A stretch of DNA of 64,000 nucleotides from Acorus gramineus (Eukaryota; Streptophyta; Magnoliopsida; Acorales; Acoraceae). The translations under genes and the position numbers were made by a program. Positions 1-22,805 of the stretch are shown here, one piece after another. The stretch spans positions 1,821,928 through 1,885,927 of the forward strand of contig CM060856.1 of NCBI GenBank assembly GCA_030737835.1, given 5' to 3'. Each line of letters begins with the position of its first letter. The stretch's first letter is position 1. The notes below the pieces were generated by a model. It did no database searches. It was not told the origin of the DNA and saw only the letters and a program-made list of their open reading frames with translations.

Positions 1-2276
1 TGTATGCTAGGAGGGTGGATCTGTGTATGAGGGGTGGTCGGCGGCTGTGGATAGCCTTCGGGGGGCGGGTGGAGGTGGTCGGAGGTCGGTGGGTGGTGGT
101 TTGGGTGGTCTCGGGCTGCAGGGGGTGTTCTCGGGCTGGTGGGGGGTGTTCTCGGGCAGCAGGCAGAGCAGCAGCAGCGCGCAGGCTGGGCGCGCGCGGT
201 CATGCGCGCGTGCGTGCGCTGGCGCGCGTGCGCGCGGCGTGCAAGCTGGCGCGCGCGGGCGGCGTGCTGTGCCGGTCGTGCAGGCGTGCTGGGGGCCTCA
301 GGCAGCGGGCAGCGAGCGCGAGGAGCTGGTGCGCGAGGTGCTGGGCGGGCTGGTGCGCGCGGAGCCCCGGGCGGTGCGCGGAGTGCGCGGGCTGAGGCGC
401 GGCGGCGCGTCCGGGCGGTCGGGTGGCCGTGCGGGTGGTGGCCGGCCGTGCGGGGGGTTGTCGGAGTGCTCGGGCTAGCGTGCGTGCGGGTCGTATGCAC
501 GTTTGCCCGAGTGTTGGGAGTTTAATTGTGGGTTTATGTATTTAATAATATTTGTGGATTTATACTTACCAAATAATACCCTGTCTTGCAGATCTCGACG
601 GGCGGTCGCGCGACGACCCAGATACTGGTGAGTGGGACAATCCAACCCAGTAGAGAGGTGTTATACGCACTTGGGCGTATACCGACCTCTCCTGGGGCGA
701 CATGGATTATATTAACCTGTAATAATATGTATTGCATGTGAGCATGATGAAAATGTAGAATGCATGCTACCCTAGGCTTTTATGTTAGGGACTTGCACCC
801 ATAGGATATGCGTATGAGCCATGCAGCATGTCCCCTGGTTTTCATGCTAGGAAACCCCGGCCTATGCATGCGTCCTACTAGTTTAATTATTAAATTAAAT
901 GCTGGTATCTGTTAGATCGCATGCCTTAGGATAATATTATAGGGAGGAGCCTTGCGAGGTCAACGCTGAGACCCGTGTTAGGGTACTCCGTGTTCCTTGT
1001 TTGGTTGTCGGGATGTCCTGTATCGGGACCTCGGGCTGCCCTCCCAAGGTTCTAGTCCCAATAATATTATATGTAATGATTGTATGATTGGTATAATTAT
1101 TAGTATAGTTGGTAGATATTATAGGGGAGGGGCCTTGCAAGGACAGCGGTGAGACCCGGGTTAGGGTACTCCGTGTTCCTTGTTTGATTGTCGGGGTATC
1201 CTATAACGGGAACTCACGCCGCCCTTCCGAGTTTCTTTCCCCTAATGATATTCCAGCCTTACTGATTTTTGTACATGTTCCCGCATCTTGATGATGCACC
1301 TGGTTGAATTCAGAGGAATTCATGACATTTGAGTTGTAATGATATGTAGTTGGCGGATCCGAGTGGATCATATGCGTATGGATAGGCTGTTCCCTGCGTT
1401 GGATTCGGTAGAGGCTACCCCCAGCGTTAGACAGGGCCTTCCTGACAGAGGGCTCCCATTAGTAGGCACCTCCTGATTTGGTTTCGGACTGTGCTGAATG
1501 TGGGAGTAGACCAGGCGGCCTACGGAGTGGAGGGAGAGACTATCGGTGGACCAAGGGTGACCAACAGCCTAGTCAGTCCCAAAATCCTATGTCACCCGTG
1601 GTAGGGTGAGGGTGAGGGTGTAGTGGGTTGGCGATGAGCGACCTACTGGATTTGTGAATAGATGATTATCAGTCCCAATAGCCTATGTCACCCATGAATG
1701 GGTGAGGGTGAGGGTGTGGTGGTTCGGCGAAGTACGAACCACTGGATTTGTGTTGTTATGTATTGATGGCTGGATAAATAATGGAATATTGGTAAATATT
1801 GTTTGTGATGCGTGGGTTGTGCTGTTCACTGAGCATGTGGCTCACCCCTCGCACATGTTTTTCCCCAGTGGTCACTGAGCCTGAGCTAGAGCCGGAGCAG
1901 CAGTTGGAGCTTTCCGAGGGATTTCTTCAGTAGCGGAGCAGCGCTACGTCCGCGAGTACCAGAGGCTATCAGCATCCCTTTCCTTGGCTGTATGTATTTT
2001 ATTTCCGTGCTTGGCACGTGTTGTATATATTCAGTTGTTTCCATGTATATTGGCTCTCACAGGACGTATGATTGTGTATCGAGTCTGTAATATGTTTTGG
2101 ATCACAGACTCAGTTTTAGCTTCCGCTATATTGTGTATATATTATGTCAGCCCTGTTTGATCTGTGTTGTCATTTTATTTGTGGTTTAGAGTATATATAT
2201 TTGACCTCCTGTGTAGGTTTCTGATATGATATATACACTTGCCGCGACCCGGGGTTGGCCGCCCTGGGGCGTGACA
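1..2276 (+). mobile_element. Long LTR of a Ty3/gypsy-type element (left end outside window)
   Basis: No credible coding sequence is present. The right edge ends in GTGACA at 2276, immediately before MULE coding sequence, as expected for an LTR terminus inserted there. A related copy occupies about 22950-24700 and shares three blocks: one around TCGCGACGA (near 610), the GGCTCACCCCTCG block (near 1842) and the CAGACT/TTCCG block (near 2105). Internally there are duplicated segments, at about 930-1080 and 1120-1260, and at about 1580-1660 and 1665-1755. The first 480 bases are extremely G+C and CpG rich. The long, noncoding, GTGACA-ending layout recalls Tekay/Del-type chromovirus LTRs from memory; the clade is uncertain. 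Whether this is a solo LTR or one end of a full element cannot be seen. Confidence 0.55.
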
Positions 2277-3250
2277 CGTTCTTTCATCGAGGATTTCACC
2301 GACGAGGTGGACATAGGCCCGGAGATTGAGATGCTTCTCGAACGCTTCAATCATGGGAGTATTGCCCAACAAAAAGAGATGAAAATTTGTCTTAAAAAGT
2401 TGAGTGATCCAACTTCCACCATTCTTCTAGAGCCCACCGTTAAAGTAAACACCAAGGGTCGTAAGAAAAGTGGACGGAAAAGAGCAATAGCCCTTGCAGA
2501 GGAATCAACCAAAAGATGTCCAAGTGGTTTTGAATACGTACTTCAATCAGTGGACACATTCCCAGGGAGCCAAGCGTTCAAAACAATCGAAGATGAGCGT
2601 ACAAAGAGGAAGAGTTAGTCGGAGTCGATCTGTCAGTGTTGAAAAATACATTGCTGAATTCCCCCCCCCCCTTCCTAACTCCGTTCATAAGTAACATATA
2701 TGATGTTCTATGGGACGGTCATTGTGGATTTCGGGTTGTTGCATCCTTTTTGGGTATGTCAAACAATGGATGGAGAGATGTTAGGACCGATCTACTTGGT
2801 GAGATCAAGCAACATCCGGACGAGTATAACCTTGTGTTCTATGGGTTGGCTCATGTGCAAGAGGTGAAAAGAATTCTGAATTGTCAATCTTCCACCGTCG
2901 GCAAGGAGCATTGGATGTCAATGCCAGATATGGGATTTGTGATTGCTTCTTGTTACAAGATCGTGGTGATACATATATCAAAACACCAATGTCTAACATT
3001 CTTCCCACTGAGGGATCCTCCACCGCCAGTCAGTGCCCACCGGACCCTATCGATTGGTTACGTTAATGGGTGTCATTTTGTCAGTTTGGGGTTCACCACG
3101 GACTCGCTGTTACCTCCCGTAGCAAGAACATGAGATCGATTCCGTCTTGATATGGCTAGCTCATGGGTGATGCCCTACATTGAGAGGATTGATCGGTTCA
3201 GAGCCCTAGCAAGGACTGATGTTGCAGTGGCTGATGTGATCGATCTGGAG
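2277..3250 (+). pseudogene. MULE transposase C-terminus with OTU cysteine-protease domain, 5'-truncated
   Basis: The first segment (2277-2618) reads like the C-terminal tail of a FAR1/MULE-type transposase: an acidic start, LKKLSDPTST, then a basic stretch and RCPSGFEYV. The second segment (about 2695-3130) is an OTU-type cysteine protease. It has the DGHCGFR catalytic motif (Asp and Cys present), a central helical part, and GCHFVSL supplying the histidine. OTU domains fused to MULE transposases are known in plants; the role of the protease in transposition is not established. The gene is cut at its 5' side by the LTR ending at 2276. The two segments are in different frames, changing near a run of C at 2660-2669, so it is broken. 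The tail at 3130-3250 (IERIDRFRAL in another frame) still resembles OTU-MULE C-termini. Confidence 0.7.
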
Positions 3251-3699
3251 TAGTCAAGGTATAAAGGTCGCAATGTTATTATGTATAGGTGGTGTAGGTA
3301 GTCAGAGCGATGGTGTGAAAGTCAGAAAGTGATTCATTTTGTCTATGTACTGTAAGTCAAAATCCGTTGATGGTGTAAAGGTCACACAGTGATTTATTTT
3401 GTATATGTAGTATAGTTAGTCAAAATAGTCAAGGTATAAAGGGCATGATATGATTCATTTTGTATTTAGTCAAAGATCAGTAGTACTCTTGTAAATTTCA
3501 CGAGTTCATTTTGTTCAATCTAGATGATGTTATTGTATAATTATTTTTCATGCTGCTCTCATTTGTTTATATATGACTCATGAATGATTGATGAGTGAGA
3601 ATGAATGATTGAGTCATTTGTTATTGTGAGAATGCTTTAGTGATTCATTTGTTTTGTAGCCCCTAGACACCGTTTGACAAAAACAAAGATATGTCCAGA
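3251..3699. other. Gene-free spacer with weak tandem structure
   Basis: No coding sequence is seen. Three imperfect copies of a roughly 80-bp unit (AGTCAAGGTATAAAGG ... GATTCATTTTGT) run from about 3255 to 3475. This is probably noncoding sequence of the MULE that carries the OTU fragment. Confidence 0.4.
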
Positions 3700-4866
3700 A
3701 AGGTGCAGACCCCATTCGACTCAACAAATGAAATTCACAACTCCCAAATCGACTAGACGTAGGCGTCTCTGTAAGTTATGGGCGATCTATTTCAATCAAA
3801 CCCAAAAAATAAAAAATCATACAAAGATTTAGTATAAACATACTCAATCCATTTAGTATATTAAAAAAAAAACCCATTCGATCCGAATCAGTCGTACCTT
3901 TTGTCTATAGGCGACTGAAACCGGTCGAACACATTGAAAACACAGGCATGTGAAATTCAGACCGTTCGACCCGGATGAGTCGTAGGTTTATGGTATGGGC
4001 GACTGAAACCGGTCGAACACCTTCAAAACACAGGCATGTGAAATTCAGACCGTTCGACCCGAATCAGTCATATGTTTATGGTATGGGCGACTGAAACAGG
4101 TCGAACACTTTCAAAACACAGGCATGTGAAATTCAGACCGTTCGACCTGAATGAGTCGTAGGGTTATGGTATGGGCGACTGAAACTGGTCGAACACCTTC
4201 AAAACACAGGCATGTGAAATTCAGACCGTTCGACCAGAATGAGTCGTAGGGTTATGGTATGGGCGACTGAAACCGGTCGAACACCTTCAAAACACAGGCA
4301 TGTGAAATTCAGACCGTTCGACCTGTATAAGTCGTATGTTTATGGTATGGGCGACTGAAACCGGTCGAACACTTTCAAAACACAGGCATGTGAAATTTAG
4401 ACCGTTCGACCTGAATGAGTCGTAGGGTTATGGTATGGGCGACTGAAACCGGTCGAAAACTTTCAAAACACAGGCATGTGAAATTCAGACCGTTCGACCT
4501 GAATGAGTCGTAGTGTTATGGTATGGGCGACTGAAACCAGTCGAACACTTTCAAAACACAGGCATGTGAAATTCAGACCGTTCGACCCGAATCAGTCGTA
4601 GGTGTATGATATGGGCGACTGAAACCAGTCGAACACATTCAAAACACAGGCATTTGAAATTCACATCGTTCGACCTGAATTCGTCGTACGTTTAGGATAT
4701 CGACGACCGAAAGTGGGTGAATACATACGACCGGAAGGAGTCGTATGTTTTGGTTAAGGAGGTCGAACCAGTCGAACAAGTTGAGTAAAAAACCAGTCTC
4801 ACCCAGTTCGACCAGAATGAGTCGTAATCATTGGTTATGGGTGACCATTAGTGGTCGAACAAAGTC
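3700..4866. repeat. 88-bp tandem array of hairpin-forming units
   Basis: The phrase CAGGCATGTGAAATTCAGAC, or a close variant, recurs at 3943, 4031, 4119, 4207, 4295, 4383, 4471, 4559 and 4647, spaced by exactly 88 bases each time. Degenerate units extend the array on both sides. Each unit contains GTTCGACC and AGTCG followed about 20 bases later by CGACT and GGTCGAAC, so it can fold as an imperfect hairpin of roughly 56 bases. The array lies between the OTU fragment and the 3' end of the PMD gene and belongs in my reading to the same transposon. GTTCGAC/GTCGAAC motifs also cluster beside the second PMD fragment at 22265-22450. Confidence 0.9.
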
Positions 4867-5198
4867 GAGGACCCACTAAACATTCGTGACAGTGATGTAT
4901 GCAGAAGTAACATATTAAACCTAAAAAATATTGTGGCTTAAGAGAGGCTAAAACCATCAATGAAGAAATAATGTGAACCCTGAAAGCAAAGTCAAAGAAG
5001 CAAATTCATATCATATTTAACTGGATGGACATCCAAAAAACACCCACTTTTGTCTACACAAAATAACAGGTTACATACTAGCTTTCGCTACAACATTTGA
5101 CCATTGATGAAAATGCTTAAACCTGTCAAACTATCCAAAAAAAGTACATAAACAACCAAAACATGACACTATTTTTTTTTTTACATCAACAAGCAATG
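4867..5198. other. AT-rich spacer downstream of the PMD gene
   Basis: No coding sequence or repeat is recognised. On the minus strand this is the presumed 3' UTR and flank of the PMD gene ending at 5199. Confidence 0.4.
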
Positions 5199-7264
5199 TC
5201 AAATCCTGCGATCATGCTTCCTATGTTTGGACCTTCGCTCCAATACAGGTGAGTGAGGGAGGGGTGTCCCGTGTTGGAGGAAATTCATCATGCCTTCAAG
5301 AATAGGCCTTTGGACCGATGTGAAGGTGCTTCCCCTATCAAGTAAATCTTCAAGAAACTGACATGCAGTTGTGACACGCTGTATGAATGAAATATAGGGT
5401 CAATTCTAAACATAGCATTTCCAGGTTATGAGAAACCATCAATAAAATAAGTGAGAATTTATTACCGAGAGTAGGTCAGAAGAGGTACTGCCCCTGTTAA
5501 ACAGTCTCTTGTTCTGGGGGTTTTGTAAGATTATATGACTGATCTTTGGAAACCACCCCAAGTAATCTGGGACTGCATCCCATGGCATTTTTGCACGGTC
5601 TCCCCTGGTGGCTGCACCTAGTAGGTAATCCTCCCATTGCTCAAGTACTTCCACGCTACCAGGATAATCAGCTCTGTAACTGGTAGCGCTACGATGCCTT
5701 CTCACATTTGAACGGGGTCGGATTGGTGCTCTTGGGATGCACTGAACATGGCTAAGCTGTCGAAGTACCCTGTCTGGCAGATAGGGTTCAAATATCACAT
5801 TGACACAAAGACACCCCTTGAAGAAGGCGTAGTCCGGGAGCGGTCTACGTTCCCGGACTGATCGATATGGATCAAACTCTACCTGAATGAAATAAAAAAA
5901 TGTGACTGCATTTTACAATTTAAGTATATAACAAATAGAAAAGAAGTAAAATATTACTTGCTCAGCCGTGGTCATATCTAGAATCTCCCGAATGATATCA
6001 ACTGAATTATTCGGCAACCCCGGTGCATTACGACAGTTGGTCCATCGATTAGAACGAGGGGCATCTTCCGTATACTCTGGATTCGGTGCTGGACTGAGAA
6101 AGGCAAAGTGCTCGTACACCCATACCTACAAACCAGTCGTGAGAGTATAGTTTAGATATTTAAGCGAAAGGATCAACTAAACATGGAGGAGTAAATGAAC
6201 TTACTTCCAAAAGTGTAAGAAATCCAGAAATCTGCCTGCACTTTGCACGGGATGCAATCCCTAATTGTCGATATAGATGAGCGAGTGTAGCAGCCCCCCA
6301 ACCAACTGATGCAATGTCCTCCATATCGCCCAAATATTTCAAATATGATACTGAAACGCTACTGCCGGTCTTATCACAGAATAGAGTACACCCTAGCACA
6401 AACAATAAGAAACCCCTAACCACGAAGTGAATGCGTTCCTCAGGCAAACTAGTGGACTTTAAGACCAACTAATCCCTCAACCAATTCAATCTCAAAGCAC
6501 TGCCGTTATGCAGACGCAACTCTTCATGAATCTCATTCATTGGTAGATTTAGGCTTTTAAAAACTAATTTTGCGGCGTCCTCAATGTCCATGGATGTTGA
6601 CCCGTACACTGCTCTGCCCATCACTGGGATTCCAATTATTTGTGTCACGTCATCGAGGGTGATGGTCATCTCTCCGAATGGTAGGTGAAAGGTGTTCGTC
6701 TCTGGATGCCACCTTTCCACCATTGAACTAATTAAATGTCTGTTTGGTGCGTGGAAACTATATTCAACTAGCGGCCACAGGCCACTTTTCTTCACCATGT
6801 TCTTAAAGGTGGTTGATTCATCATGGACATTCCATCCCTCCATGGTTTTGGTAGGTTGACGACATCGTAATGTTCGATCGCCCTACACACAATCGAATAG
6901 TCGTACCTTTTAAATGATATCATACACAAAACACATTAACATAAACAAAATAATGATATGAATTCAGATGTACCTTTCCGTTCCAAACACGATACGCGAT
7001 ATGATGCCTGTAATCAACAAGAATTGCGCCTGTTTCAGGTCCACCCGGGAAAGGACCATTTAGACTGTTTGGGTCTATGTCTGAATCTACAATTTTGAGT
7101 GTCGATTCGTCTTCTTCCACCTCCTCTCCCTCTACCTCAGGATCATCTACATCTGGTTGTTCCACATGTGGAACTACTGAACCAGACGATGCATGTTTGG
7201 CAATTCTTTCTGATTGACGTCTTCGAAGCGAGGCTGTCGGTGGAATGCGAGGCTTTCGGGCCAT
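5199..7264 (-). pseudogene. Plant mobile domain (PMD / MAIN-like) gene, five exons, one in-frame stop
   Basis: Exons are complement(6974..7264), (6205..6882), (5958..6125), (5466..5882) and (5199..5378). All internal boundaries are GT-AG and all four introns are phase 0. The total is 578 codons including the stop. The product carries the PMD fold (PF10536) known from MAINTENANCE OF MERISTEMS-like proteins and from proteins annotated as 'serine/threonine phosphatase 7 long form homolog'. Signatures are WHPETNTFHLPFGEMTITLD, VTQIIGIPV, FVLGCTLF, WGAATLAHLYRQL and YLPDRVLRQL. The N-terminus (residues 1-60) is basic then acidic. A TAG at 6469-6471 interrupts the reading at about codon 235; otherwise it is open. 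PMD genes are widely carried by MULEs and some retrotransposons, which fits the adjacent OTU-MULE relic. The opposite orientation to that relic suggests two genes in one element, but shared ends are not shown. Confidence 0.8.
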
Positions 7265-8326
7265 ACTGAAATGAATGTAGAATCATTATAATTTAGTAAA
7301 CTTACAAACTGAAGCTACAATTTATTCACTACAATTCAGCGAAGGATTCAATTCATTCTCAATTTTAAAATATCACAAAATCAACCAAATAGAATTGACC
7401 ATATCTGGTCATTAGCTACGTTTTATTCATTAATTGTTTTCACTCATTCTTTTCTTTCATATCATTGAATCAACCAAGGACCTAAGCCATATAGATGGAA
7501 GGGAATTCAACAATTGAAGTAAAGCATCCACAATTTGCATTGACATGAGAGATGTCATTTTTAGTCTATCTGTTTCTATATATGTATAAAAAGTTAAGAA
7601 ATAATCATATATATGTATAGAAAGTCAAGAAATAGCACCATTATCACCCTTTGTGGAGCATTGATAGGATGATATTTTTTAATGGAAAAAACAAAACAAC
7701 GGGGTTGCAAGAAAGGTTTTGAGAAAATTCACAGGAGAAAATATTGATTGGGGTTGTCTTGCACTCTATTGGGAAAATCATTTCTTAGGAGGACGTGGCA
7801 ATTTCTTTCTGAAAAGTCATGACCCTTCAAGGAACATCTATGAGTGAAAATCAAATCCATGAAATATATATTGAATTTTTTTTTCTTTCCAACCATATGC
7901 CTACATAACAAGAAGTTCATTTCAGAATGAACATAAACATAGTCAATGCAAAAATTAATCTATACCACTGTCCATTGAAAGCGGGTCAGTACAAAGATTT
8001 ATTTAAGGTTTTACAGTTCAGGTGCAGAAGGGATAGATGATGGACATTACCTAGTCTGCTTTTATTAGTATTTGTTCTTCTATTGAGAAACTTAGAAACA
8101 ATCATCATTTTACTGCTCTAGTATGCACTTGTTTAAGTTAAGCATAAAATCTTCCTTCAAAGACTTGTTCTCATAAAAAGGAACCACAATCTGATGCATA
8201 ATGGCATTTTCTTCATTTAAGAGCTTCACATTATAAATTTAGATATGGAACTTAAAAAATGTTATACATTTTCCTAACACCAAATAATATCGAAACAAAA
8301 GTTCTTAAATTAAAAAACTAGCTTAC
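7265..8326. other. Gene-free AT-rich region
   Basis: No recognisable gene. A 36-bp direct duplication (TATATATGTATA...AAGTCAAGAAATA) lies near 7575-7635. On the minus strand, about 8125-8240 is open for some 38 codons (contains NEENAIMHQIVVPFY) and could be an exon relic of the degraded gene at 8327. I cannot assign it. Confidence 0.3.
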
Positions 8327-8428
8327 AGCGACGCAGATATTGGTGTGGTAATTCTTTCTATTGCTTTCAAGCCCTCTTTTGAAAGGCTAAGTTTTGTATG
8401 ACCAGGATCAGGCCCCAGGATAGGAAAT
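8327..8428 (-). pseudogene. Isolated exon of a guanylate-binding (GBP) family GTPase
   Basis: The minus strand reads FPILGPDPGHTKLSLSKEG, then LKAIERITTPISAS. This matches, from memory, the segment just before the P-loop of plant guanylate-binding family proteins (dynamin-like large GTPases). A good acceptor (CTTTCAG) precedes the block at 8429 and a good donor (CT|GTAAGC) follows at 8326. The expected next exon, with the GKS-type P-loop, is not found between 7265 and 8326, and no clear first exon is seen upstream. I treat it as a gene relic or captured exon. Confidence 0.6.
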
Positions 8429-11400
8429 CTGAAAGTGCAATGAGCATGATCAATTTGAAGGCTACAAAAGAAAATGACAGGCAATTCATATGATTTAGCA
8501 TTTAGATGAACTAATACTAATGACCAGGTCCAAGACCACCATAAAATTAAATTAACATGAAATTATTGCAAATTGCAAAAAAAAAAACAAAGCACTTCTG
8601 ATGACACCTTAAATACCTTATCATAATTTTAGTTTTTAATATATCCATGCAATTCTTTGGAATATGTGCTTGATTTTTTATAAAATATATACTATTTGTA
8701 AAAAATCCAAAACACATGTAGGAATTGGGGCTGTACATAGCATGGATAAACTTGAATCATGAAGAAAACATGAGGAAGGGAAAACTGTATAAGTTAAACC
8801 CTGATAAATTAGAATAAAAATTTAATAGTCATATTTGAGGGAGGCGGTTATAGTTTTTTTTTTTTTGAAAAATGAGATAGGTGGATCTGCCACTTCTTTG
8901 ATTGCACAAAAGGAGTATAAGTCCAAACACAGAGAAACCTAAGCACAAGTAAAAGAGCCTAGGAACAAGAGGAGCTAATAGAGAGGCAGTGGTTATAGTT
9001 AATTGCACTTTACCAAACATAAAAAGTGAATAACCAAATGGAAAATCAAGCAGATGTGTGAGGCAAGTGGGAAGCAATTGAGAATTTGTCTAGACAAGTT
9101 GTATATTTGCCTAATGTGTGTATATTAACAAACTGTGTACATAGTTTGTGTGTCTCAAAAAAAGCGTATATTTATTTGTGACCAACTATTACTTTTTTAA
9201 TAGCAAAATCTCGGAAAACATGGAGCTTTTATAACATTTATAAACATTTCCTCATAATTTATACACTATTTCCACTAGATTTTCCTTATGAGTCATTTGT
9301 TTCATACACCTCATCAAGTCCATGACTTGAATTACCTACAACATGTGAATATAAAAATGCCTGTAAAGAATGTGTTGTGCAAAACCATTTTTCATAAAAA
9401 CCTCAATCTTATTCAGTTTCCTCTCAAGGCATCTCGTATCTTTTGGCGACCAAAAGGAACTACTTTTTTTTCCATCAAGTCACACAAATTTGTTTTGTTG
9501 TGTGTCATAGGACTTCAAAAACTGTTCTTATTTTGGAACTCACACACGCACAAGGAAGAGAATAAAAAACCAAAACGATAAATGTAATTTCAACAGGTCA
9601 TCGGTTTTGGCTTGAACTCTACTTGAAGTGGACATTCAGAATCTCAGATTGATTGATCTGCGAAGTTTAAACAGACAGTAAAGGTGGTCCCCTTTTATCC
9701 TCCCTTTTCTCTTTCCTTCACATGCATAGCATGTGTTAGGCTGACTTGTTTAATTTCAGCTGTTGTTTCTATTCTTGGAAAAAAAAATTATACCCCTTTT
9801 GAGCCTCCTTGCTGTACTTCACAATTATTATTCTATAATGAACATGGCTCTACTGTTTTTTTTTCCCTATCATTCTTTAAGGAACCAGTTGCACAAAAAA
9901 GAAAAGGAAAAAAAAAACACTGTTTCACCAATGCTAGGTCCCAACATTCTGTTCATTGCAGGGTGATTGAAAGCATTGGATCTCCACATAAGGTTCTGGA
10001 CTGAATGGGGACCTATGATTTAAATGAACAAAAGAAGGAATCTGCAAAGGCAATGAAAGCTTTAGGGACGTCCATCATACAATTTTCCAGAAATGAATAA
10101 ACAAGATCAACATTGGTTTGAGAAAAAAAGAGGGTGGGGGGCCACGTTACACAACTGTTGAATGTCAATCAAATGTCTGCGTTTTGATTATTAAAATTAA
10201 CTTATCAGTAGCTTTGGATTCTGGAATTCTATCATTCAAGAAACAACATTACTTATGATTTATTTTAAACAAAGAGAAAGAAAAGTTGGCATGCAGAGGA
10301 AAGTAAATATGGTCAATGTGAATAAGGTGTGTTGCGGAGAAGATACCGAGAAAACTAGTCATGGGGCCAGTCTATCAATGTGCCATTCTTGCCTTCCATC
10401 TGTCTCTCTGAGGGAGTATTGCAGCCTGTCAAAGACAACTAATACTGCATTAAAATTGAAGTTGGAATATGGATGCATCATATTAATCAGAAGGGACTGC
10501 AGGGAAGTAGTTGTTGACTCACCGGTCATGCAAGAGAGATGGCTGTCCTTGCCAGAATTCAAAGAGCCGGGGCGTAAGCCTATAACCTGCCCAGTACTCT
10601 GGTTTGGGAATCACACTTCTGCACATTCACAACACAAGTGTGAGCTCAGTCTTCTATCGACATTCATTAATTAAATTCTGTCATGACTTGAGTGTTGCAG
10701 AGGATTGAAAAATTGACCATGTGGGGTTATAGACATGATCAACTCACTAGCCAATCAAGAGAATCTGGGTAGATTTGAGGCCATAAAATTTGATGATGCT
10801 GAAATTAGATAGAATGTGTAATAGTTGAGGACTTGTTTCTTTTTTCCTGTTCTTGTTGCCAAAAAATTCTCCACGGTTACCAATCACAATAACAACAAAA
10901 AGCTTCACAACTCTAGTCAAGAAAGAAGAATAGCCTAGTCAAATGAGAAGAATGTAGAGATTCCAATATTTTGTATATAAGTTATGAATTTTGACACTGG
11001 GTTCTCTTATATTAACAAATGTAGTAGTTGAAGGGTTCTGCTTGTCTTTGTAATTTCCTGAAAGAAGAAAAATTTGGAATTGAAATTGTGAAGAGGATTT
11101 TTTTTTTTGGGAATATAAAGTGGATTGTTTTGCATGTGCCAGATCAGGGGATTGGTATTTGGATTAGTTAGGTTAGATTAAAAAAAAAAGAACAGATTCA
11201 TATAAACATGATTAAAAATTATACTAACTGATATGCAGAGTGGTACTCCAACAGAATGCACAATGAGGTACACAATATACTAGGAGGCAGGAGCCGAAGA
11301 AAAGCAAATAAAAAGCGTGATGATGATTAACTCTACATAAATAACATGAATCAATTCAAACACTGACCCCAAAAAAAGTGCAAAATTTATTATTTGCCAT

Positions 11401-11501
11401 CATGAAAGTTCATTGCTCAATGACCATATGCATCTCTAGAAAGTATCTTAATATGTTACATTGAACACAACCATTCAGAAGCTCATGTACTGTGGAAAGG
11501 A
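8429..11501. other. Gene-free region
   Basis: No recognised product on either strand. Homopolymer runs (A and T of 8-12) and low-complexity AT dominate. The stretch 10300-10680 has more balanced composition and a 139-codon open frame on the plus strand, but resembles no family I know. It may be old intron or flank of the GBP relic. Confidence 0.3.
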
Positions 11502-11518
11502 CACAATCACCCTTAATA

Positions 11519-11606
11519 TTTTTTTTGTAGGTAAATGGTGGGTCTCGAACCCATGACTTCTTAGTTGTAAATTCTCTTGTCAATTATTGAGCTATGGATC
11601 CAAGCC
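11519..11606 (-). mobile_element. Short tRNA-derived SINE with target-site duplication
   Basis: On the minus strand the 88-bp unit shows a polymerase III A-box-like stretch (TAGCTCAATAATTGA), then a B box (GGGTTCGAGACCC), then a short A-rich tail. It is flanked by 17-bp direct repeats, CACAATCACCCTTAATA at 11502-11518 and CACAATCTCCCTTAATA at 11607-11623, differing at one base. Those repeats mark it as a retroposed copy rather than a tRNA gene. Only the tRNA-related head and a tail are present, so it is a minimal or truncated SINE. Confidence 0.75.
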
Positions 11607-11623
11607 CACAATCTCCCTTAATA

Positions 11624-13690
11624 GTTTGTATGGATGACCATATTTTCCTCCTATTCTGTTTTTATTTATGTTCCAGCTTTATTGATCTACTGGCATATAA
11701 AAGACGCATTCTTATTTTGTCAATTGCCATACACTTAAGCTGCTTAGCTAGTCATTATTAAACTCATATATGCCACTCAAGATATAAATAAGGATGGTAC
11801 AGATGCAAATTGCATGACTTTGAATGTTCCAATTCCCTTAAAATCTGTTTACAGGTGCAACTAAACAACTCAAAATAATGTAAATATAGTTGTATAATAT
11901 TTTTACAATGGAAATTAGATGTATATATTGTTATGTCACATGAATTCATCAAAAAAATATCTAGAAGGATAATGGCACTCAATTTAACACTGCACAACAA
12001 ATTATCCGCCTTGCTTGGCAAAACCCAAGAACACATTTCGTGAAACCGATTTAAATACATTGGCACAAATAGCATACTCACCAAGCAATCCTCATATAAT
12101 AACAACAAAACAAGCAAAAAACAATAGTTACCTTGATAACCAAGTAATATTTCAACCCCAAAAACACACAAATCAAAAACAAAACAAACATTAATCAATC
12201 ACAACACACAACACTAGCATAAAAAGAAATTCAAGAAAAAAAAGAGTTTTTTTTTAAAAAAAAAAAAAACCTAAAATGGGGGTCTCCTTTGAAATGGGTT
12301 GAGTTGTGGGAACCTCTCAGTTTTTGCTCCCCTCCCATGATGAACGGCAACACATTTAGGGCATGGGACCCCAATTTTTAGTTTTATAATAGTAACTCTT
12401 ATGTTGCTTCTTTTAAATCTGTATAGTATTGTGTTGTCCCAATTTTTTTTTCATTCACCCAATTGTCCAGACACACACATGAGTACCCTATCTTTTTTTT
12501 TTCCCCAAATACAAGGAGGGGCCTGAGCCCCTGCTTGTCTTCAGGTGGCTCCGTTCTTCAGGTGGCTCCGCGCCTATCAAAGGCTCAAGCTCATTTCATA
12601 GAAAAAAAGAAGAGAAGAGAAGTACCTGAAGAGGGTGCGGAAATGAAAACACGGCCTTTGTTTTTTTTTTGGTCGGAGGAAATGGTGGTCGTTGATGGAG
12701 TGATCGATTTTCACCGGCGGCACCGGACGACGGCAGGCGGCACGGGACGAAGACAGGCGGCACCGGGGAGTGGTTGGAGGTCAACAGGAGTGGTGAGTCG
12801 GGAGAAAGAGGAGATTTCGAAATGAGATGGGTTCAGGGAAGAGAGAGAGAGAGGTTTTTGAAAAGGGGGAAAGGTGGGATTAGATTTTCAGGGAAGATAT
12901 ATTTATCACATGGTGGGCTCAGTCACTTAGTAAGTTGTAGGTGGTGGGTATAGATTAGTGGTGTATTAAGAAAATATGTTGGTCGGAATAGACGGGCCCT
13001 ATAAATGTATTGTTTGAAAATGGTAAAAAAAAATTATGGTAATTTAGTCATTTCATAGTATAAATTAGGGTTAACTAGGCTTTTGTTGACACCAATGATG
13101 TGTATGAGCTTTTGTCAGTTTTCAAAGACTTATACGAGATTACACATGTTTGTCAGAATATGAAAACACAAAATTGAATTAGCCCTTATTATGATAGATG
13201 TGTCTCCACACATCAATGAGAATCCCATGATTTTAGGGATTTTTTTATTCAAATCAGTGCTCTAATCCGTTATTCATAGTTGAGAAAGAGGTAAACAAAC
13301 ATATATGCATATACACACGATCATATTGAAATATTCTTCTTTTTTCTATTGGGATTCATTATTTCTTCACATTGAACATCGGCATTCAACCTATTGTATT
13401 CCAAATTATCAAGGTCCATCATTTTCATGATGACCTGCGAGATCACGAGCTTGTTGGTTTGTAATCATAACAAATATATACTCTCCTGAAAGAGGTATTT
13501 GCAACTTAACAAAACATATATGTATAAGATGAAAATATTCATATGAAAGTGTAGGTTAGTAATCTATGAAATGAAGTATATATAACAAACAATGTGAGTA
13601 TATATTTGAGTACAAGACGCCAACAAATCATGCGAGACTGAAATTGAAGTTAAAAAAGAAATCGTTTTTTAACAACACTCGTCTCTTTAT
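11624..13690. other. Gene-free region with a GC-rich block
   Basis: Mostly AT-rich. At 12510-12840 a GC-rich block contains a short duplication (CTTCAGGTGGCTCCG twice near 12540) and repeated GGCGGCAC near 12715-12770. Its composition resembles the GC-rich interior of the TIR element at 57609-60174, but no terminal repeats were found. No gene is supported. Confidence 0.3.
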
Positions 13691-22254: not shown

Positions 22255-22805
22255 AGGCAAGTAACATTCGACCCTTGGATGGTCGAGCCAAAACATATCA
22301 GTTTGACAGTACCCATGTCGAACAAAAATCAAAATTTAAATGATATTGTTCGACAAACTAGTGTCGAACATCTTTAGAAGGACTCGACAGGTTGTCTGTC
22401 GCCGTGGAAGGCTATGGTCGACTCTGAATATGCCGACTCGATGGACTTGACGTAGATGGAGTTAAGGGTGGCTCCGAGGGCGAATGCTTCGACAACTTGG
22501 TCACCTCCAAACAATTCTGAAGGAACCTATCCGGCCAGAAGGAAAGAGTAGACTACCACAACTAGTAGCTACCGAGTCACTTATGGTGGTAGTGCGACGT
22601 ATATGGAGCAGTGGGACAATCACTTGTTGGGTCAAAGATCAAAAGGGCCTCGAACGCAAGTTCATGGGACACTGTTCCAAAATACATGAGGCAATTTGAT
22701 AGAGTAAGTCACATATTCGTTCAGGACCCAGACCATAGGAGACATGGATTGGCAACAAACAGTTCCATGGTTGATAGATCTTCAGATGAGTACTGGTCCT
22801 TGTGA
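22255..22805 (+). pseudogene. Second PMD fragment with GTCGAA-motif cluster
   Basis: From 22484 the plus strand aligns, across changing frames, with exon 5 of the PMD gene at 5466-5882: LRQLGHL against LRQLSHV, EPIRP against APIRP, then QWDNHLLG and MRQFDRVSHIFVQDPDHRR against the ISHIILQNPQNKR region. Just upstream, 22265-22450 carries five or more TTCGAC/GTCGAA motifs like those of the 88-bp array. It is a decayed fragment with frameshifts; no introns or flanking exons are seen. Confidence 0.65.

Follow-up and report, generated by a model that had tools for sequence, protein, structure and literature searches.

Introduction

Mutator-like elements (MULEs) that carry a plant mobile domain (PMD) gene antisense to the transposase gene are already in print: in the passages accessible of the survey by Dupeyron et al. 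2019 (PMC6446971), group 50 has this arrangement, and PMD genes also occur in groups 42 and 45–49. Here we describe a family of such elements from Acorus gramineus, starting from a copy in a 64,000-nucleotide stretch of contig CM060856.1 (assembly GCA_030737835.1, positions 1,821,928–1,885,927 of the forward strand; hereafter the window, on the contig that we label C10), in which a transposase with an OTU-like tail, a non-coding array of short inverted dyads and an opposed PMD gene follow one another. The family resembles the MUDR clade of that survey by its features, namely a MULE transposase, terminal inverted repeats (TIRs), target duplications of 9–10 bp and a PMD gene that is often antisense. 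Unlike the situation here, a motif array between the two genes is not mentioned in the passages accessible, and the main text has no match for 'OTU' or 'tandem repeat'; the table of the same paper places a minisatellite in two animal MULE groups, after the transposase open reading frame in aphid Phantom elements and within the C-terminus in Rehavkus, with no PMD noted there.

A second described system that the locus resembles is that of the VANDAL elements and their protein VANC (Hosaka et al. 2017; Sasaki et al. 2023). According to the parts of these papers that were accessible, VANC binds short motifs within fast-evolving non-coding VANDAL tandem repeats (PMC5735166, PMC10398659), and, as at the locus described here, family-specific short motifs lie in diverging non-coding repeats while an accessory gene stands beside the transposase gene. 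The two systems differ in that the motifs here are inverted dyads of fixed spacing, which in one family (family C, below) are not in tandem, and in that the accessory gene found here is a PMD gene whereas that of VANDAL elements is VANC (DUF1985-type). Moreover, the repeat described here occupies a single convergent gap whereas VANDAL repeats lie in introns and upstream regions, and VANC is an anti-silencing protein whereas an anti-silencing effect here would be an analogy. The border is not a sharp one, as the table in PMC6446971 records PMD and/or DUF for one half of the VANDALs.

Protease domains provide a further point of comparison. Kaonashi/CUMULE-type MULEs carry a ULP1 protease, so that both they and the present element pair a MULE with a cysteine protease, but the candidate here is OTU-like and fused to the C-terminus of the transposase. 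OTU protease terms also occur in papers on the DNA transposons Ginger (PMC2836005) and Helentrons (PMC4067079), which belong to superfamilies different from the MULE described here. The PMD itself is of the same family as that of MAIN and MAIL1 (PMC7156037, PMC5418596, in the parts accessible), which are host silencing genes and not element genes. PMD proteins silence Arabidopsis transposons, and how their plant mobile domain acts is the question to which the locus speaks. In the passages accessible, Ikeda et al. speculate that PMDs captured by MULEs serve anti-silencing, and a review likewise raises the possibility that transposon PMDs act against silencing. The dyad array would be the missing target of these proposed anti-silencing PMDs, and a dyad of fixed geometry with a family-specific half-site makes a precise candidate target for a transposon PMD.

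Among the papers listed from the open-licence literature (titles, starts of abstracts and passages) we found no description of an array of motifs placed between the transposase and the PMD gene of a MULE, nor of a geometry shared between such arrays. What is new here is the dyad array and the geometry common to families, the combination of a MULE with an antisense PMD being already known. An earlier note on this DNA, made from the sequence alone, had suggested that the combination of the parts with the repeat might be undescribed, a suggestion that holds for the array in the literature found, the antisense PMD being already described in PMC6446971.

Results

A composite MULE and its sister copies

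The three parts lie where the earlier note had placed them, with an OTU-like transposase C-terminus on the plus strand at 2279–3253 (OTU-like part at about 2650–3250, stop codon at 3251–3253, in a damaged copy), an 88-bp tandem array on the plus strand at 3877–4712 (Tandem Repeats Finder (TRF): period 88, 9.5 copies, 91% matches) and a PMD gene on the minus strand at 5190–7264. Of the five exons proposed for the PMD gene, exon 1 (7264–6974, start codon at 7264), exon 2 (6882–6202, the core of the plant mobile domain, with one in-frame stop in the window copy) and exon 4 (5882–5460) match the proteins of sister copies at 99–100% identity, and exons 3 (5958–6126) and 5 (5190–5390) are approximate, having been placed by eye from the translation.

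Searches of the 399-Mb genome with the array and its upstream flank, with the PMD gene and with the transposase tail each returned numerous copies, of which about a dozen, the best ones, are 90–99% identical. Ten sister copies with their flanks were taken from the top of the transposase-tail list, and are thus not a random sample. In all ten the transposase tail, the array and the PMD gene follow one another with order and orientation unchanged (the PMD match being partial in copies C54 and C93), as expected of the transposon lineage with all three parts that had been proposed, and the window copy is colinear with them. No open frame of at least 80 aa lies between the transposase stop and PMD exon 4 in sister copy C71, which agrees with the earlier observation that no further gene separates the parts.

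Eight of the ten sister copies have a sharp left end in common, CTCGTCTANSCCCACCAAACAATTTTCTTATCC, which has 28 matches in the genome at three mismatches or fewer (reversed control, 0). A search for the right end as the reverse complement of the 260-bp left end found none within 20-kb pieces; deletion derivatives later exposed it. It was located in the window copy, C71, C5 and C6b, and in C6a only at 75%, and was not reached or not found within the pieces of C99, C1, C32, C67, C54 and C93. In the four copies in which both ends were read (the window copy, C71, C6b and C5) the TIRs enclose the transposase with its OTU-like tail, the array and the PMD gene, the arrangement that the earlier note had named as support for its proposal. 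The TIRs are 43–50 bp long and 80–84% identical (C5, C9n and C3n). The 9-bp target duplications for which the earlier note had advised a check are present in part: duplications of 9–10 bp, within the 8–11 bp expected of MULEs, flank four of the six copies compared, being TATAAATGTA (10 bp, on both flanks) in the window copy and 9 bp each in C9n (ATTTATAAA), C6b (AATAATTAA) and C6n (TTTGGAACA), while C71 has none and that of C3n is imperfect. No array or PMD gene with independent TIRs was seen among the few ends inspected, family-A copies without a partner being untraced.

The region holds a single copy, damaged and split by a foreign repeat, from a family of autonomous-type Mutator-like DNA transposons. 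Its left end lies at C10:1817824, outside the window by 4.1 kb, and its right end at window position 12999, a total of 17.1 kb of which some 3.1 kb (by coordinate subtraction) is the foreign repeat that ends at 2278. The window thus holds the plus-strand share 1–12999, with the left TIR outside it and the right TIR (minus strand, 12955–12999, ...TTGGTCGGAATAGACGGGCCC, inner edge approximate) followed by the duplication TATAAATGTA. The unit is therefore far larger than the 2277–7264 module first delimited, and position 2279 is the border of the foreign repeat that interrupts the transposase gene.

Three deletion derivatives, on C9, C3 and C6 (C9n and C3n, 4.16 kb and 99.4% alike; C6n, 3.65 kb), are short elements in which the array and a portion of the PMD gene stand between the left and right ends, with the TIRs of the family kept. 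All three retain the array, with 23 dyads in C9n, and by coordinates the left end lies directly beside the array in five copies (on C2, C3, C6, C9 and C89). These derivatives, which lack the OTU-like tail, are deletions of the family and likely reflect recent mobilisation in trans. Other copies are incomplete in different ways. Among the matches listed, an OTU tail with an array at C82:435 kb has no neighbouring PMD, and no OTU match lies within 15 kb of the PMD genes at C82:588 kb, on C63, on C59 (two), on C76 and at C54:2338 kb; the last of these has an array. Because of the copies with TIRs and the co-location count given below, we regard the parts as a composite element rather than chance neighbours, and chance neighbourhood of the three parts is ruled out by the same evidence. 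It is almost certain that the OTU-like transposase tail, the array and the PMD gene form one composite MULE family.

The array is a series of inverted dyads whose geometry is shared by unrelated arrays

In the window the array, with its immediate flank, is a series of 19 inverted dyads CGAC-N8-GTCG (3912–4824) separated by gaps of mainly 17 and 39 bp. In the gap of this family (family A) no other CGAC-to-GTCG spacing occurs among spacings of 0–29. Sister families, whose OTU tails are 68–80% identical, have arrays unrelated in sequence and like in geometry in the same gap between transposase and PMD gene. Family B (C43; OTU tail 80% identical to A) has a 90-bp array of unrelated sequence with 20 CGAC-N9-GTCG dyads, and family C (C5; OTU tail 78% identical to A), in which TRF reports no tandem repeat, has 24 CGAC-N9-GTCG dyads with 24 different spacers. 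Family D (C9:17.4 Mb) has a 91-bp array with 24 AGAC-N9-GTCT dyads, family E (C52) has 10 CGAC-N9-GTCG dyads, and F (C94) and F2 (C4) have 15 TGAC-N9-GTCA dyads each. On sequence, F2 falls within family F and D2 within family D, which leaves six independent families. A tandem or higher-order repeat structure is seen in the arrays of all of these but C, and in all six families read the array has a fixed position downstream of the transposase.

An unbiased scan of all four-base words other than homopolymers, at spacers of 3–20 and with 200 shuffles each, ranked the family dyads first in all six families, with a shuffle maximum of at most 4. The top dyad of B (20) was tied with the same sites one base out, that of F (15) with the 17-bp inter-dyad gap, and the top dyad of D, GACA-N7 (26), is the AGAC-N9 sites (24) read one base out of register. 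An inter-dyad gap of 17 or 18 bp was found in all six families and gaps of 37–41 bp in A, B, C, D and E. Neither the PMD genes of A, B and C nor the transposase frames tested contain the strict dyad (six of six stretches). In C71, C6b and C9n from end to end, and in the window copy from position 1, strict CGAC-N8-GTCG is confined to the array and its immediate flank, with none in the TIRs; the relaxed form GAC-N8-GTC occurs outside the array 1, 2, 0 and 2 times, respectively.

The geometry of the array is conserved while the first base of the half-site varies by family. Because the distances within and between dyads are fixed, the spacers free and the half-site family-specific, the dyads are very probably sites bound by a protein that acts as a dimer or tetramer and co-evolves with them, and the earlier description of the repeat as a hairpin minisatellite is better replaced by one of paired, protein-site-like dyads.

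Across the six families read the first base of the half-site is C, A or T, and never G. Deamination of the CpG in both half-sites would turn CGAC/GTCG into the TGAC/GTCA of family F; such an origin is a conjecture.

The arrays of A, B and C also differ from the rest of their elements in CpG content, with observed/expected ratios of 1.35 in A, 0.90 in B and 1.53 in C compared with 0.29–0.75 in the other parts of those elements. Methylated CpG decays, and the CpG kept in the A–C arrays would therefore reflect selection or an absence of methylation. The half-sites of D and F contain no CpG.

An OTU-like transposase and a PMD gene that are long-standing partners

Seven of the frames of C71 were scanned with Pfam, and the MULE domain PF10551 (E=5.5e-23; 81.7 bits, cut-off 27.6) and the FAR1 domain PF03101 (31.4 bits, cut-off 28.1) were recognised. 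An open frame of 875 aa is present in copies C6b and C32. The FAR1 domain could be aligned across five families (A, B, C, D and F), that of A being 70–81% identical to the others, and by eye its first strand is nearly constant despite the change of half-site.

The OTU label for the tail is no more than plausible. The catalytic signature of OTU proteases is Asp-Gly-x-Cys together with a His followed by an aromatic residue, and GDGHCGFR and GCHFVGL are invariant across families A, B and C. No OTU Pfam profile matched: the 545-aa tail in the second C71 frame gave only a sub-cut-off match to PF01665, an unrelated family, and a scan of the tail from three family members gave nothing at E<=10. In the PDB, a single OTU-tail query gave four weak matches at the DGxC motif (E 0.09–0.24), of which three are to VCPIP1, a deubiquitinase, and the fourth to a 174-aa fragment of a viral polymerase that represents an OTU domain. 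A three-row OTU-tail profile gave 17 PDB matches, none significant, in which mGluR5 made up the top match and ten others and the VCPIP1 and viral kinds 5 of the 17, so that the label gained no strength from it. For the OTU-like stretch of the window taken by itself, structure prediction reached a pLDDT of 37 and was left unused. The protease-fused transposase of the earlier note thus keeps its invariant OTU-like catalytic motifs and lacks a significant profile match.

PF10536 matches the sister copy of PMD exon 2 with E=7e-39 (score 134.4 bits, cut-off 34.9), and exon 2 of family A is 58–64% identical to that of B, C, D and F2. Among families A, B and C the dN/dS ratio is 0.12–0.15 for the OTU tail and 0.11–0.16 for PMD exon 2, with dS for the two in the range 0.8–2.2 and partly saturated. 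These ratios indicate that both the OTU tail and the PMD are under purifying selection between families, and because of this selection the PMD is not a mere captured fragment, an account that we accordingly rejected.

Protein searches of the genome returned at least 151 OTU-tail matches and at least 150 PMD matches. For the co-location count we used the best 95 of the 151 OTU matches, which range from 100% to 43% identity, and 106 of the 150 PMD matches, leaving out the second fragments of two genes and 42 matches from C4:21842533 on (38–42% identity). Several of the OTU matches are fragments of one element, and copies within a family are not independent. A convergent downstream PMD exon lies within 5 kb of 56 of the 95 OTU matches, within 8 kb of 68 and within 15 kb of 76, where the chance expectation is about 0.001 per OTU match within 8 kb; none of the 95 has a PMD exon in the same orientation. 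Conversely, 75 of the 106 PMD matches have a convergent OTU match within 15 kb. The OTU–PMD partnership is old.

Candidate readers of the dyad array

Read inwards, the element comprises a short TIR, a transposase with FAR1, MULE and OTU-like domains, a non-coding gap with the dyads, the opposed PMD gene, a tail of about 5.7 kb and the other TIR. We propose that a dimeric or tetrameric protein would bind the NGAC-N8/9-GTCN' dyads; a protein encoded by the element, most likely the PMD, would act as the reader of the array; and its binding would guard both the full element and the deletion derivatives against silent chromatin in the manner of VANC. The OTU-like domain could, speculatively, deubiquitinate chromatin or a transposase target. 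From the sequence evidence it is fairly probable that the reader is encoded by the element itself. That the reader is the PMD and its effect anti-silencing, which is argued by analogy, seems possible rather than probable. The overall reading, a PMD/OTU counterpart of VANC in which an element protein (the PMD or the FAR1 transposase) reads its own array, we put forward tentatively, as a suggestion that falls only a little short of being probable. More doubtful, and again by analogy, is the generalisation that transposon PMDs may be sequence-specific anti-silencing DNA binders, each co-evolving with the dyads of its own family. If true, this would constitute a second VANC-type system built from unrelated parts (a PMD and an OTU-like protease) and would supply a molecular activity for the plant mobile domain, possibly one common to host MAIN and MAIL1.

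Several observations weigh against this proposal. PMD has no known DNA binding, and its mode of action is termed unknown in the accessible part of PMC8616336. Within family A the half-sites vary less (0.042) than the spacers (0.143) or the rest (0.099; 153 units), at p = 0.059, which is not significant. The remnants G (45% identity), D2 and that at 22 kb in the window hold 2–3 dyads, no more than the shuffle maximum. Among the matches listed, 19 of the 95 OTU matches and 31 of the 106 PMD matches have no partner within 15 kb. High CpG content is not general, the observed/expected ratio being 0.39 in the array of D and 0.63 in that of F. Genome-wide, CGAC-Nk-GTCG counts (N7 2694, N8 5784, N9 5124, N10 2133) do peak at N8/N9, the two family spacings, a striking peak that speaks for the dyads; it is indicative only, as the reversed-word controls are uneven (2494, 2169, 6640 and 4713, respectively), with the N9 control above the count. 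Dyads are found, too, at places outside the OTU and PMD matches listed, and the dyad site may not be private to the OTU/PMD lineage. Finally, FAR1 is a DNA-binding domain and hence a more obvious reader than the PMD.

The last point is the starting point of the main alternative, which we consider rather unlikely and in which the FAR1 domain of the transposase reads the array, the array serves as an internal transposition enhancer or in autoregulation, and the PMD has another job. The FAR1 domain is a zinc finger of the WRKY-GCM1 type, and the half-site core GAC (TGAC in F) coincides with that of the W-box, to which WRKY proteins bind, a match that we count in favour of FAR1, as we do the retention of the array by derivatives that require transposase in trans and the presence of the domain, above the Pfam cut-off in C71 and aligned in five families. 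The absence of a strict dyad from the TIRs of the four copies scanned argues mildly against it, and so does the fact that FAR1 is more conserved than PMD exon 2 beside a half-site that varies. Should FAR1 nevertheless read the array, the system would show how spaced dyads are recognised by plant MULE transposases and by the light-signalling factors that descend from these transposases. Further removed from the element's own proteins, and improbable in our judgement, is an array that acts as a docking platform for a host factor, exploited by the element or used for its silencing. Dyads in a 33-bp rhythm where no OTU or PMD match is listed, as at C1:2801023–2801715, speak for a host factor, but a host protein of fixed specificity would not permit a family-specific half-site base, and the array occupies a single fixed place in the six families read.

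Two accounts dispense with a reader altogether. The position of the array between two convergent 3' ends would suit RNA or single-strand hairpins that act as a bidirectional terminator or a source of small interfering RNA (siRNA), and complementarity does continue on either side of the half-site in D and, to a lesser degree, in B. In A, E and F, however, the base on the inner side of the half-site is complementary in only 10–13% of dyads, with a mixed picture on the outer side (0.05 in A, 0.4 in E and 0.6 in F), and hairpins need neither the fixed loop length nor the fixed dyad-to-dyad distance that the arrays show. We accordingly judge this account very improbable; the scarce inner-side complementarity in A, E and F rules out a hairpin satellite as a general account, a rejection that does not extend to D. 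An ordinary minisatellite produced by slippage, with dyads that are accidental to the repeat unit, would fit the tandem or higher-order structure of five of the arrays, but is largely contradicted by a core word, spacer and gap common to six unrelated arrays and by family C, which is not tandem, and is almost certainly not the explanation.

Dyads elsewhere and other features of the window

Among the N8 dyads listed on C1, runs in 33-bp steps (16 + 17) recur, for example at 2801023, 2801056, 2801089 and 2801122. The stretches C1:2801023–2801715, 2013682–2013781 and 4703260–4703595 contain dyads, many in 33-bp steps, and no OTU or PMD match among those listed.

The earlier note had also pointed to a joint recurrence of a PMD fragment and the motif at 22.3–22.8 kb of the window, which proves to be weak and at best an old, rearranged relic. 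The relic (22269–22751, plus strand) consists of CGAC-N8/9-GTCG dyads at 22269, 22351 and 22385 and a plus-strand fragment of PMD exon 4 at 22469–22751 (E=2e-9, 34–50% identity to family A). The dyads lie 5' of the exon fragment, unlike the order in the element, and the dyad count (2) equals the shuffle maximum (2), so there is no excess.

Beyond the PMD gene, the 5.7-kb tail (window 7265–12950) gave no domain above cut-off in the three C71 frames scanned. Copies C99, C32, C67, C1 and C6b have different sequence beyond a common breakpoint (window 11360), as though one end had been swapped or an extra segment had entered.

The right part of the foreign repeat inside the transposase gene occupies window positions 1–2278, and the alignment of the window with copy C32 breaks at 2279, the edge of the repeat. 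Its type is judged from an end (...GGGGCGTGACA) that resembles that of a long terminal repeat (LTR). The repeat is GC-rich, with the LTR-like end TGTCACGCCCC/GGGGCGTGACA, and by eye a close look-alike lies, reversed, in the OTU–PMD gap of the distant family G (C61).

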